This document shows positions 37,796 to 46,836 of a stretch of 64,000 nucleotides of DNA, piece after piece. The notes beneath the pieces are model-generated. The model had not been told where the DNA came from. It saw nothing but the letters and a program-made list of their open reading frames with translations, and made no database searches. Position 1 is the stretch's first letter. Every line of letters begins with the position of its first letter. Location of the stretch: contig NZ_WIXM01000006.1 of assembly GCF_010993965.1 (NCBI RefSeq), positions 128,529 to 192,528 of the forward strand, written 5' to 3'. The position numbers and the translations under genes were made by a program. Origin of the DNA: Gracilibacillus sp. YIM 98692. Lineage in GTDB: Bacteria; Bacillota; Bacilli; Bacillales; Amphibacillaceae.

Positions 37796-38245
37796 TTAGA
37801 GCATATCCAGAAACTTGTCCTTCAATTGTTCAGCTTCTGCGGTTGTTTTACAAATAATTAAAATTGTATCGTCACCGCAAATAGTGCCAATGATTTCATC
37901 CCATCCTAAGTTATCAATTAATGCTCCTATTGCATTGGCATTGCCGGGTAAGGTTTTCATCACAATAAAATGAGTAGCAGTATCTATGCTAATAAAAGCA
38001 TCCATAATAGAACGCTTCAATTTATTTAATGGGTTAAACTTTTGGTCCGCAGGTAAACTGTACTTATATCTACCATCTGTAGTAGGCACTTTCACCAAAT
38101 GTAATTCCTTAATATCTCTAGAAATTGTCGCTTGGGTAATCGCATAACCTTGATTACGTAATGTTTCGACTAATTCATCTTGAGTTTCAATCTCTTGGTC
38201 TGTAATTAACTCCCTTATTTTTATATGTCGTTGTGCTTTATTCAT
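37796..38245 (-). CDS. argR: Arginine repressor ArgR/AhrC
   Basis: Arginine-sensing regulator that represses biosynthesis and activates catabolism of arginine. The 149-residue protein has an N-terminal winged helix ([19 protein letters not shown]) and a C-terminal hexamerisation/arginine-binding domain with the GDDTILIIC motif. It lies between tlyA and recN, as in B. subtilis ahrC. Confidence 0.95.
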
Positions 38246-39142: not shown

Positions 39143-41044
39143 TCAAGCCCTTTTTTGCTTTGTCTCGGTTTCGCTTAATAAACGTTTCATCTCTATAATA
39201 ATGTTTTCCTCATTTAACCCAATCTCATCTAACAGTTTACCGACATCTCCATGCTCAATGTATTGATCTGGTATTCCCATCCGTTTAATTTGAGGATGTG
39301 CTTGGTGATTTTCAGCAAACTCTAACACGGCACTTCCAAAGCCACCCTGTAAGATAGCTTCTTCAATGGTCAAAATAGGTATATTTCTCTCAAAGATTTG
39401 CAACAACATTTTTTCATCTAATGGCTTCATAAATCGTGCATTTACTACCTCTATATTAAAACCGTTTTTATGAAAATATTCACTTGCTGCTAATGCCATA
39501 CCAATTGAGGTTCCAAAGGTTAAAATAACTGCATCTTTTCCTTCCTTCAACACTTCCCAAGTTCCAATAGGAATAGATGATAAATCGGAGTCCATTTCCA
39601 CTCCTAAACCATTTCCTCTAGGAAAACGTACAGCTATTGGTCCATTATTATATTCTAATGCAGTATGCACCATATGTTGACATTCATTTTCATCTTTTGG
39701 CATCATTAAAACCATGTTTGGCAGATGTCTTAAATATGCTATGTCAAATACTCCTTGATGAGTTTCACCATCGGCACCTACTAAACCTGCTCGGTCAATT
39801 CCAAATGCAACATTTAGATTTTGACGACATACATCGTGTACAAGCTGATCATAAGCCCTCTGTAAAAAAGTAGAATAAATAGCTAAAAATGGTTTCATCT
39901 TTTGAGTTGCAAGTCCTGCTGCCATTGTTGTAGCATGTTGTTCAGCAATACCTACATCAAATAATTTATCAGGATATTTCTTCTGAAATTTATCCAGCTT
40001 TGATCCTAAAATCATCGCTGGAGTGATCACTGCTAACCGATCATCATTTGCTGCTATTTTTTCCAATGTGTCGCTCACTACTTGACTCCAAGCTGGCGGA
40101 GCATCGACAGGTTTTATTTTCTCCCCTGATTCAATTTTATAAGGACCAACACCATGCCATTTATCTTTTTGATCCGTTTCTGCAGGAATGTAGCCTTTTC
40201 CTTTTTTCGTAATGACATGTACAATTACGGGACCTTCCGTTTTAGATGCGTATTCCAAATTTTCTTCTAAATCTTTAAAATCATGACCATCAACAGGTCC
40301 AAAATAAGTAAAGCCAAACTCTTCAAACAGCATGCCTGGGACCATAAAATATTTCATGCTGTCTTTCATACGCTCAGCAGTTTGTGCAATTTTACCACCA
40401 ACAGCTGGAATGCGTTTCATTAACACCTCTAATTCGTCTTTTACCTTATTATATTTCCCTGCACTTCTCATTCTACCTAATGCCTTATGCAATGCACCTA
40501 CGTTACCTGCAATAGACATTTCGTTATCATTTAATATAACGGTCATATTCTTTTTCTCATGTCCAATATGATTTAACGCTTCTAATGCCATTCCACCAGT
40601 TAAAGCTCCATCACCTATAATTGGCACTACAGCATGATTATCTCCCTTTAAATCTCTGGAAACAGCCATTCCCATTGCTGCTGACAAGGATGTTGAACTA
40701 TGACCTGTTTCCCAAACATCATGTTTACTTTCTCGCATTTTCGGAAAACCACAGAGCCCCTTATACTGTCTCAATGTATCAAACTGGTTTGTTCTTCCTG
40801 TCAAAATTTTGTGAATGTAAGACTGATGACCAACATCAAAAATTAGCTTATCAGTTGGACTATTAAAATGTTTATGTAAAGCTAAAGTTAACTCTACAAC
40901 TCCTAAATTAGCCCCTAAATGTCCGCCAGTCACCGATAATTTTTCAATTAAAAACTGGCGTATGCTTTCTGCTAACACTTCCATTTCTTCTGTTGTTAAT
41001 TTTTTTAAAAAATGAGGATGGTTAATTTTGGTTAGATCCATCAT
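39143..41044 (-). CDS. dxs: 1-deoxy-D-xylulose-5-phosphate synthase
   Basis: First enzyme of the MEP isoprenoid pathway: joins pyruvate and glyceraldehyde-3-phosphate using ThDP. The 633-residue protein has the GHQSYIHK His, the ThDP motif [32 protein letters not shown], and [15 protein letters not shown]. Two adjacent ATG codons lie behind GGAGG; the second (41041) has the better spacing and corresponds to MDL in B. subtilis. It lies 34 bp downstream of oapA and next but two to ispA, so isoprenoid synthesis genes flank the OLE locus. Confidence 0.95.
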
Positions 41045-41078: not shown

Positions 41079-41657
41079 TTAATTATTTGACAATACTTTT
41101 ATTTTAAATTTTTCTTCAATAAATGCAATTATTTTCCCAACAAGAAATATAATATTTGTTGATGCATTTATGGCAAAAAATTTCCCTAACGCTTTACCGC
41201 CCACTGTTAATGCAGCAACTAAGCTTGTTAACACAACAGATATAGTAAGATGAAAGGAAGTGCCATCTGCATAACCAAAATTGTTGGATATTTGTAACAC
41301 GACTATAGCAGATGCTGTACCACTTATTATACCAGAAATATCTCCAATTACGTCATTACAAAAAGTTGCAAATCGATCTGCATTCCGTACAATTAAAATC
41401 GCTTGCTTGGAACCGCTTACCTTCTCTGCTGCCATTGCATGAAATGGTACTTCATCTGCTGCAGCCGCAGCAATTCCCAGCATATCAAAAAAAACTCCGG
41501 TAAATACAATAACAAAAACAATCAACAAGCCAATAATCGACATAATACCGCTTAAGACAGAAGAAGATACAACTGAAAAAATAGCCGCTAACACAAATGT
41601 GATAACGGCAATACTTATACTGAATTTTATAGACCTTTTTAATTGTGATTTATTCAT
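41079..41657 (-). CDS. oapA: OLE-associated membrane protein OapA
   Basis: A 192-residue membrane protein with about four to five hydrophobic helices (roughly 11-33, 37-60, 105-125, 137-158 and 165-185). It carries the motif D102-V-I-G-D106. OapA binds OLE RNA and holds it at the membrane in Bacillus halodurans, where a DxxxD motif at nearly the same place is essential for function. The assignment rests on this motif, on length, and on location directly between a long structured noncoding stretch and dxs. Expression is expected together with OLE RNA and dxs. The OLE complex is linked to cold, ethanol and magnesium stress. Confidence 0.85.
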   Translation of the reverse strand: MNKSQLKRSIKFSISIAVITFVLAAIFSVVSSSVLSGIMSIIGLLIVFVIVFTGVFFDMLGIAAAAADEVPFHAMAAEKVSGSKQAILIVRNADRFATFCNDVIGDISGIISGTASAIVVLQISNNFGYADGTSFHLTISVVLTSLVAALTVGGKALGKFFAINASTNIIFLVGKIIAFIEEKFKIKVLSNN

Positions 41658-41694
41658 ATGCTTACCTCATCATTTAATTAATAAAATTATGTAC

Positions 41695-42299
41695 ATGGAA
41701 TGGTCATTCAAAAGGTAAAAACTGCGGCTTAGGTCCAGTAGGTTTTCCCAAGTAGGTACCGAGTGTTGCCACTCTGGCGGTTCCCCTTTAAACCTACCTT
41801 AGCGTTGTCACCAACAGCTAGACTGGATTGCCACTTAGTCCGCACTATAATCCCTTTTAAATGTCCATTTGGAACAGTCTAGGAGATTTCCTCAACAATC
41901 TTTGACCATTTCCTAGCCTCTTTTGCAGTACGAATTTCATACAGAAAAACTTGTACTTAATAGTGGCCATCTATTAAGTAAAGCTAAGAGCTGTAATCCC
42001 CTTCGTACCACTCAAGGCAGGCTACGCTACGCATAAGAATTTCATATCCTATTACGTAGGTTCATACCCCATTCCATTCTTTTTCCTTGGCTAAGGAAAA
42101 AAAACAGATATGGGCCTCCGCGGAAGAAGGGTCTTCGCCCACATGCCTTTGTGGATCGCCCTCCAACCTTAACTCCCAGCATCGACCCAAGGCTGGGCGC
42201 CTCAAGCCAACACAAGGAACTTCATCGATATGCCCTTTGGCGGATTTTTAGGCCCGCCTTCAGAAATGGAGGATTGACTAGAATACTGCACCATCCCAT
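41695..42299 (-). ncRNA. ole: OLE RNA (ornate, large, extremophilic)
   Basis: The 685 bases between ispA and oapA hold no gene but a clearly structured, GC-richer RNA. The 5' end AUGGGAUGGU (42290-42299) pairs over 10 bp with the 3' end ACCAUUCCAU (41695-41704), enclosing 605 nt, the size known for OLE RNA (about 610 nt). Internal hairpins include GGCGG/CCGCC, CCCAGC/GCTGGG and UUCCUU/AAGGAA, and a purine-rich core reads GGAGGGCGATCCACAAAGGC. The order ispA-RNA-oapA-dxs is the known OLE synteny. I identify it from context, size and structure, not from a covariance model. Exact ends are inferred from the closing stem. Confidence 0.88.
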
Positions 42300-42342
42300 C
42301 TCGTTACTTTAAATATAACATATGTTTTAATTTTTCTCAATA

Positions 42343-43227
42343 TTACAAGTCTCTATCACTTAAATAATCAGTCAGACACTCCAGCTTTGAGCCAATAAGT
42401 CCTACTTCATGTAAATATTGCTTTGCCTTTTGCACATAATAGTTTTTACGAGATATAGCTCCTTCTAGTCCTAACAATGACGTGTATGTATTTTTATCAT
42501 TTGTTACATCACTTCCAGCTGGCTTCCCCATTATCGTTTCATCACCAATCACGTCTAATATATCGTCTTGAATTTGAAATATTAGTCCAATGCAGTCGCC
42601 AAACTCTTTGATCTTTTCAATCACCTCTTCCGATTCTCCCGCTAAATAACTACCTATTTCAACTGCATAAGATAACAATCTACCTGTTTTCAAATGATGA
42701 ATATGTTCCATTTCTGATATACTTATATTTTTCGTTTCTGATTCGATATCCAAAAACTGACCAGCTACCATACCTTCCATCCCACTAGCTTTAGACAGTT
42801 TTTGAACTAGATGAACTTTTTCTTCTGCTGTATAAAAAGGGTTGGAAGAAATAACGTGAAAGCTATTTGTTAATAAAGCATCTCCTGCCAAAATGGCAGT
42901 TGCTTCATCAAATTGTTTATGATTTGTTAATCGTCCTCTACGGTAGTCGTCATCATCCATTGCAGGTAAATCATCATGTATGAGCGAATATGTGTGAATC
43001 ATTTCCAAAGCTATAGCAGCGGGATATATTTTTTCTGCATTGCCATGAAACCCTTCACAGGTTAACTTCATTAGGATAGGGCGTAATCGTTTACCACCTG
43101 CATCAACAGAGTATAAGACAGATTCTTTTAGGCGTTTCGGAATATGTAAATCTGACAAATAAGAATGTATACAATCATTTACCAATGTTTGCTCTTCTTT
43201 TATATAGCTTTTTAACCAATCATTCAC
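42343..43227 (-). CDS. ispA: Farnesyl diphosphate synthase
   Basis: Chain-length 15 prenyltransferase supplying precursors for undecaprenyl phosphate, menaquinone and haem O. The 294-residue protein has the first Asp-rich motif at D85-D86-x4-D91 and the second (QIQDDILD) near residue 220. It also has KRLRP near the N-terminus. It is 5 bp after xseB and ends 43 bases before the OLE RNA, so it may be the promoter-proximal coding gene of the OLE transcript. Confidence 0.94.
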   Translation of the reverse strand: MNDWLKSYIKEEQTLVNDCIHSYLSDLHIPKRLKESVLYSVDAGGKRLRPILMKLTCEGFHGNAEKIYPAAIALEMIHTYSLIHDDLPAMDDDDYRRGRLTNHKQFDEATAILAGDALLTNSFHVISSNPFYTAEEKVHLVQKLSKASGMEGMVAGQFLDIESETKNISISEMEHIHHLKTGRLLSYAVEIGSYLAGESEEVIEKIKEFGDCIGLIFQIQDDILDVIGDETIMGKPAGSDVTNDKNTYTSLLGLEGAISRKNYYVQKAKQYLHEVGLIGSKLECLTDYLSDRDL

Positions 43228-46437: not shown

Positions 46438-46836
46438 TTAATCGTGTGATTTATTCTCTTCAACATTTTGTTCTAAATGAACACCCACAACATGAATGTT
46501 AATCTCTTTTATATCAATGGCAGTCATATTAGTAATCGCATGACGAATATTATGTTGAATCTTTTCAGCTATTTTCGGAATGGAATAGCCATAATCGATG
46601 ACTATAAAAACATCTATCAACACACTATCTTCCGTTAGTTCTACTTTGATTCCTTTCCCATGTGCCTTTTTTCCTAACCGTTCTACAACCCCGGAAGCAA
46701 TATTACCTCTCATACTGGAAACACCTGGAATTTCAGTAGCAGCAATACCTGCGATAACTTCCAAAACATCCGGAGAAATTTCTACTTTCCCTAAATGAGA
46801 TGGATCACTAACCCTTAACAAGTGATTTTCAGCCAT
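46438..46836 (-). CDS. yqhY: Asp23/DUF322 family protein YqhY
   Basis: A 132-residue Asp23-domain protein: ISPDVLEVIAGIAATEIPGV, a GVSSMRG loop, and a C-terminal INIHVVGV strand. In B. subtilis YqhY is linked to control of acetyl-CoA carboxylase, and mutants acquire acc suppressors. Its position 32 bp downstream of accC and upstream of a terminator supports the same accB-accC-yqhY operon here. Confidence 0.9.
   Translation of the reverse strand: MAENHLLRVSDPSHLGKVEISPDVLEVIAGIAATEIPGVSSMRGNIASGVVERLGKKAHGKGIKVELTEDSVLIDVFIVIDYGYSIPKIAEKIQHNIRHAITNMTAIDIKEINIHVVGVHLEQNVEENKSHD

Follow-up and report, generated by a model that had tools for sequence, protein, structure and literature searches.

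A conserved UACAUA hexamer after the OLE RNA is a candidate EndoA (MazF) processing site

Few bacterial RNAs that still lack an assigned biochemical function are as large as OLE, and in the OLE literature examined (passages of PMC9723947 and PMC11332333) no enzyme is established for its 3′ end. The RNA is described as 'presumably posttranscriptionally processed' to ~630 nt, as plentiful in B. halodurans grown under standard conditions and as rising 5-fold with ethanol (PMC9723947, in part); RNase P scission is mentioned in the available text of PMC11332333, where RNase PH is a matter of speculation. What, then, makes the 3′ end of OLE? Passages of PMC12054373 and PMC10898510, in which processing and MazF were looked for, name no nuclease for OLE processing. 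A literature search combining 'OLE RNA' with 'MazF' found only a Staphylococcus phage study, and 'endoribonuclease' is absent from the OLE and H. halodurans genetics papers listed; earlier end mapping may exist (Puerta-Fernandez 2006; Ko and Altman 2007), and the review PMC8058203 contains both 'OLE RNA' (two occurrences) and 'endoribonuclease' (three). Here we describe a conserved hexamer, UACAUA, that follows OLE in many genomes and of which we found no earlier account in the literature searched, and we consider whether the toxin endoribonuclease EndoA (MazF) may cut there.

The locus lies within the window, by which we mean the whole stretch of DNA analysed, 64,000 nucleotides in length (Table 1). 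The original prediction had identified the gap between ispA and the 192-residue membrane gene as OLE RNA, and a scan with the Rfam OLE covariance model confirmed this: cmscan with gathering scores covered model positions 1–616 whole and untruncated, at 539.4 bits against a threshold of 50 bits, and RF01071 was the sole Rfam match at gathering score across the 64-kb window. One OLE copy was found in the 4.37-Mb genome, and a 671-nt stretch folds with a z-score of −8.0 relative to 20 shuffles. The proposed order of ispA, RNA, 192-residue protein and dxs is borne out by the genes of the locus, and homologues of both OapB and OapC, which the prediction had suggested seeking elsewhere in the genome, are present. 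OapA, OapB and OapC, called essential in the literature, are all encoded, and the locus falls within the class already described; it is practically certain to be a complete OLE ribonucleoprotein locus, and its OLE RNA and OapA are a fresh example of an already known class. As in the Halalkalibacterium halodurans OLE/OapA locus (RF01071), OLE is full-length and followed directly by oapA, isoprenoid genes flank the locus, and the genome encodes homologues of OapB and OapC; oapA is also near OLE in 56 of the 58 loci L087–L144. In the comparison with H. halodurans, nearby open reading frames (ORFs) resemble argR, yqhY, accBC, folD and nusB (names by inspection). Those at window positions 37796–38245 and 46438–46836 resemble ArgR and YqhY/Asp23, respectively, also by inspection; passages of PMC12265935 present ArgR as a candidate partner and yqhY as a frequent neighbour.

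Table 1 Features of the OLE locus in window coordinates
Feature	Position	Strand	Basis or remark
ispA (farnesyl diphosphate synthase), upstream neighbour of OLE	42343–43227	minus	
Candidate sigma-A promoter of ole	42340–42312	minus	By eye; TTGAGA 42340–42335, 17 nt, TATATT 42317–42312, TG extension
OLE RNA	42310–41684	minus	Full-length RF01071 match, 539.4 bits, E 2.1e-155
5′ strand of end helix, AUGGGAUGGU	42299–42290	minus	Read from sequence, covariation
3′ strand of end helix, ACCAUUCCAU	41704–41695	minus	Read from sequence, covariation
UACAUA, predicted EndoA (MazF) site	41693–41688	minus	Predicted cut between 41693 (U) and 41692 (A)
oapA, 192 aa	41079–41657	minus	Position, D102/D106, fold
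dxs, downstream neighbour of oapA	39143–41044	minus	

The 192-residue membrane protein had been proposed to be OapA, and its position, DxxxD motif and CNNM-like fold bear this out. The motif, a distinctive feature of OapA according to the accessible part of PMC11332333, falls at D102 and D106 as predicted, both within an FCNDVIGD stretch that does not vary among the 26 proteins aligned. The protein is 63% identical to each of two Halalkalibacter OapA proteins (L083, L085), and its closest named relatives among the matches listed are from Gracilibacillus species (86%). Neither Pfam nor NCBIfam gives a family name for it, and a PDB sequence search returned only a chance match (E 0.88). The best of five AlphaFold2 models (pLDDT 80; the other four, 49–62) is all-helical with four helices of at least 27 residues, and its top four Foldseek matches in the PDB were all MtCorB (7m1t/7m1u; probability 0.99–1.00), at E values of 0.02–0.2, with no match at E ≤ 0.001. 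The model suggests that OapA has a CNNM-like fold, consistent with what passages of PMC11332333 give for H. halodurans OapA. Unlike the CNNM/CorB Mg transporters, OapA has 192 residues, lacks the CBS and CorC domains and carries DxxxD, and the Pfam CNNM score in the OapA region is only 14.5 bits. The genome also encodes two CNNM (MpfA-type) matches above the Pfam cut-off (G000:C1:119462-120040 and G000:C17:2759-3292; L002, L003), the second of which sits in a 314-residue ORF that looks short for a CNNM–CBS–CorC layout. OapB is a 111-residue KOW protein between adk and infA, with 7k9b ('OLE-associated protein B', E 2e-31) as its best solved match, and OapC is a YbxF-type L7Ae protein between rpoC and rpsL that matches 3v7e and 4lck at E values of about 2e-20 (3v7e, 1.6e-20); these neighbouring genes are named by inspection.

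We compared OLE loci in three sets, comprising 219 loci in all; PMC11332333 reports OLE from about 2,800 genomes. Set A (near relatives; n = 81) contains the window and the best 80 of 531 OapA-confirmed stretches, and is biased to near relatives because only the best 80 were taken. Set B (class level) contains 62 of the 64 class genomes with an OLE match, the genome studied here and a 74-nt fragment (G109) being excluded, and sets A and B probably share at least one genome (L024, L147). Set C (phylum level) contains 76 of the 283 other genomes of the phylum with a match, namely the 29 best-scoring loci and 47 picked from 150 listed, mostly one per family. The excluded fragment (G109:C1:9598-9671; 22.9 bits) is perhaps a decayed OLE copy. 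Anagram, spacing and helix counts refer to the 203 of 219 loci that could be parsed (16 unparsed).

The sequence at the 5′ side of OLE contains a promoter-like element, and an extended −10 element occurs upstream of OLE in 77 of 81, 57 of 62 and 56 of 74 loci of sets A, B and C, respectively, compared with 3.5, 1.5 and 2.5 in composition shuffles; passages of PMC9723947 likewise give ole its own promoter. The two ends of the RNA had been predicted to pair over 10 bp, and this pairing is exact: AUGGGAUGGU and ACCAUUCCAU form ten pairs, one of them G–U, spanning 605 nt. In sets A, B and C (56, 54 and 64 distinct rows, respectively), 97%, 90% and 94% of the cells of nine pairs are paired, compared with 24–66% when the partner is slid by 1–3 nt. 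As the 3′ strand was placed by best pairing among 18 positions, pairing as such is favoured, and more weight can be given to the double changes and the shuffles. In every set, pairs 5 to 10 each show double changes, and for none of these pairs did more than 20 of 500 letter shuffles reach the observed pairing. Pairs 2–4 are almost invariant in set A and hence uninformative there, and pair 11 is without support in sets A and B in the same covariation test. Judged from this covariation in three sets of relatives, the end helix is real. The Rfam structure line for RF01071 leaves the OLE ends unpaired, and P1, named within OLE domain 2 in passages of PMC12265935, may possibly be the same helix.

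An alignment of the 81 set-A loci revealed that TACATA recurs just past the end helix in a spacer that is otherwise poorly alignable. We counted the hexamer at all 219 loci in a 70-nt window beginning 16 nt before the model end (Rfam coordinates). It is present in 76 of 81, 43 of 62 and 22 of 76 loci of sets A, B and C, which are not phylogenetically independent, whereas equal flank windows contain it in 142 of 6,623, 18 of 1,307 and 34 of 1,355 cases (1.4–2.5%), and spacer shuffles that keep composition only predict 4.6, 1.4 and 2.5 loci. The 70 nt upstream of OLE contain TACATA at 1 of 81, 1 of 62 and 0 of 74 loci. TACATA is the commonest hexamer of the post-OLE region in every set, narrowly so in set C (22 versus 20 for AAAAAT). 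Its 59 anagrams average 4.5, 1.6 and 2.4 loci, compared with 66 of 70, 40 of 59 and 20 of 74 parsed loci for TACATA itself. Furthermore, the hexamer lies within about 16 nt of the end helix in 64 of 66, 27 of 40 and 17 of 20 parsed site-bearing loci. It is absent from five set-A loci (L057, L058, L064, L066 and L073), 19 of 62 set-B loci and 54 of 76 set-C loci. We also considered, and dropped, the idea that OLE avoids TACATA within its own sequence: the hexamer ranks low among its anagrams in sets A and C but not in B, and this reading is confounded because OLE itself is conserved.

The hexamer coincides with the reported specificity of EndoA. RNA-end mapping in B. subtilis exonuclease mutants found cuts at U/ACAUA, with A only as the sixth base, that disappeared when ndoA was deleted (PMC11780869, in part); UACAUA is also the preference of Symbiobacterium MazF (PMC10893535, in part), and UACAU is the older five-letter motif in passages of both papers. 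An EndoA gene is present in the host, in the order alr–ndoAI–ndoA–rsbR (names by inspection). Its product matches five solved EndoA-type chains at E values of 6e-64 to 2e-62, and is identical to the best of these, 7bxy, at 105 of 116 residues (about 90%, by our count). The gene stands directly ahead of an RsbR-like gene (L225:1207-3044; name by inspection), and a second, diverged MazF/PemK-type protein is encoded elsewhere (G000:C4:26342-26635, L226; 55.7 bits). The OLE site and the B. subtilis EndoA sites share the identical hexamer and closely similar enzymes, whereas the published sites concern mRNA targets and decay in the accessible text of PMC11780869; among the literature matches listed, none described a stable noncoding RNA with a conserved EndoA site at its end. 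The 64-kb window contains 25 copies of TACATA on its minus strand and 29 on its plus strand; some minus-strand copies lie within ispA and dxs, so cuts would be possible outside the spacer too.

Taking the specificity of EndoA and the presumed processing and stress response of OLE from the literature, we infer that the OLE transcript starts at its own promoter and, as oapA usually follows OLE at once, that an endonuclease generates its 3′ end. This enzyme would most likely be EndoA, cutting the OLE–oapA transcript at U/ACAUA. The cut would yield an OLE of about 620 nt with a short single-stranded tail past the end helix and would put a 5′-OH end on the oapA message, and stress, by freeing EndoA from its antitoxin, would uncouple OLE RNA from new OapA synthesis. 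In 24 of 27 sampled set-A loci, those bearing the site, the hexamer has a mean unpaired probability of 0.59, higher than that of the OLE body (0.33) and much the same as that of the downstream message (0.57); in the minimum-free-energy fold of the window sequence a weak hairpin takes up part of it, and by eye we saw no conserved partner of UACAUA in the OLE body. From the sequence evidence, we lean, by a little, towards the conclusion that EndoA cuts the OLE–oapA transcript at UACAUA, freeing OLE and uncoupling OapA synthesis. A broader proposal, which we offer tentatively and at somewhat less than even confidence, is that OLE is a dedicated EndoA client, in which a toxin–antitoxin RNase would make the 3′ end and uncouple oapA under stress, with EndoA activation as one input of the OLE ribonucleoprotein switch across much of the Bacilli. 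A stress-linked nuclease with a candidate site here would connect OLE directly to stress; the site also suggests that a toxin RNase may act as an RNA-maturation enzyme.

Alternatively, the conserved UACAUA between OLE and oapA could serve as an RNA signal for a reader other than EndoA (a different endonuclease, a protein that binds RNA or a site where the RNA chain pauses), with OLE and OapA as published; we consider this possible, although rather doubtful. We know of no reader of UACAUA other than EndoA. The enrichment of the hexamer is strong whatever the reader, and the presence of EndoA fails to predict the site. An EndoA relative is present in 62 of 63 (own genome included) and 68 of 72 OLE genomes tested. 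The genomes of all five site-less set-A loci have EndoA, and three class families (f37, f38 and f43; 11 loci) have no site and an EndoA at 84–87%. In set C, the site accompanies OLE in 21 of 64 genomes with EndoA at 60% or more and in 1 of 8 without a close EndoA, with no clear link, indicating that EndoA absence does not explain the missing sites; as a test, EndoA presence against site presence was dropped because it varies too little. In one genome, the EndoA match is in two pieces with an internal stop (G086:C101:92532-92878), and the OLE of that genome keeps TACATA. A reader other than EndoA would also fit the observation, in passages of PMC11780869, that wild-type B. subtilis shows no UACAUA cutting, whereas OLE is plentiful in B. 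halodurans during standard growth, and constant processing by EndoA would therefore need a basal activity that was not seen there. What argues for EndoA is that the conserved hexamer equals its six-letter specificity exactly, including the last A (PMC11780869, in part).

It is improbable, in our view, that the hexamer serves oapA as a DNA or translation element, such as a −10 box or a portion of the ribosome-binding region. Within one family, at least five class-level loci (L092, L095, L098, L105 and L107) have the hexamer directly before an ATG at the start of oapA (TACATAATG), 12 nt before the approximate oapA start given by tblastn, and 'CATAAT' after TA looks −10-like in some loci. However, the distance of TACATA to OLE and to oapA varies widely, the positions beside it carry at most 0.6 bits, TACATA and TATAAT agree at three of six positions, and no −35 element was seen by eye at a fixed distance. 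Moreover, L115 retains TACATA with no oapA found within 1,500 nt, which favours a role for OLE itself. If EndoA is the reader, a cut at the five loci with the hexamer before ATG would also strip the ribosome site from the message. A G-rich, Shine-Dalgarno-like stretch lies ahead of the hexamer in these loci.

Chance or shared spacer ancestry is very improbable: set A consists of near relatives and the statistics ignore kinship among non-independent samples, yet the 22 positions flanking TACATA are only 34%, 27% and 28% identical among the bearing loci of sets A, B and C, and 14 of 19 class families (B) and 19 of 46 phylum families (C) have at least one locus with the hexamer, against about 2% of flank windows.

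Terminators were considered as an alternative, mutually exclusive solution for the 3′ end and dropped, as the loci do not split cleanly. A terminator finder, too lax in A+T-rich loci, was positive at 74 of 76 site-bearing loci of set A; in set B it was positive at 5 of 19 site-less versus 7 of 43 site-bearing loci. Two loci with OLE and no oapA within 1,500 nt (L094 and L115) have, by eye, a terminator-like hairpin after OLE, and in L115 TACATA lies ahead of this hairpin.

A conserved, sequence-exact candidate site specifies an enzyme, a nucleotide and a mutant, and could be tested in the tractable H. halodurans. In that species, the model organism for OLE, the primer KH014, CGTTCCGACTGCGTATGTATGA, corresponds, by our reading of a table in the available part of PMC12054373, to the reverse complement of a TACATA-containing stretch, and the hexamer by our counting from KH014 lies near nucleotides 619–624 of OLE1-637.
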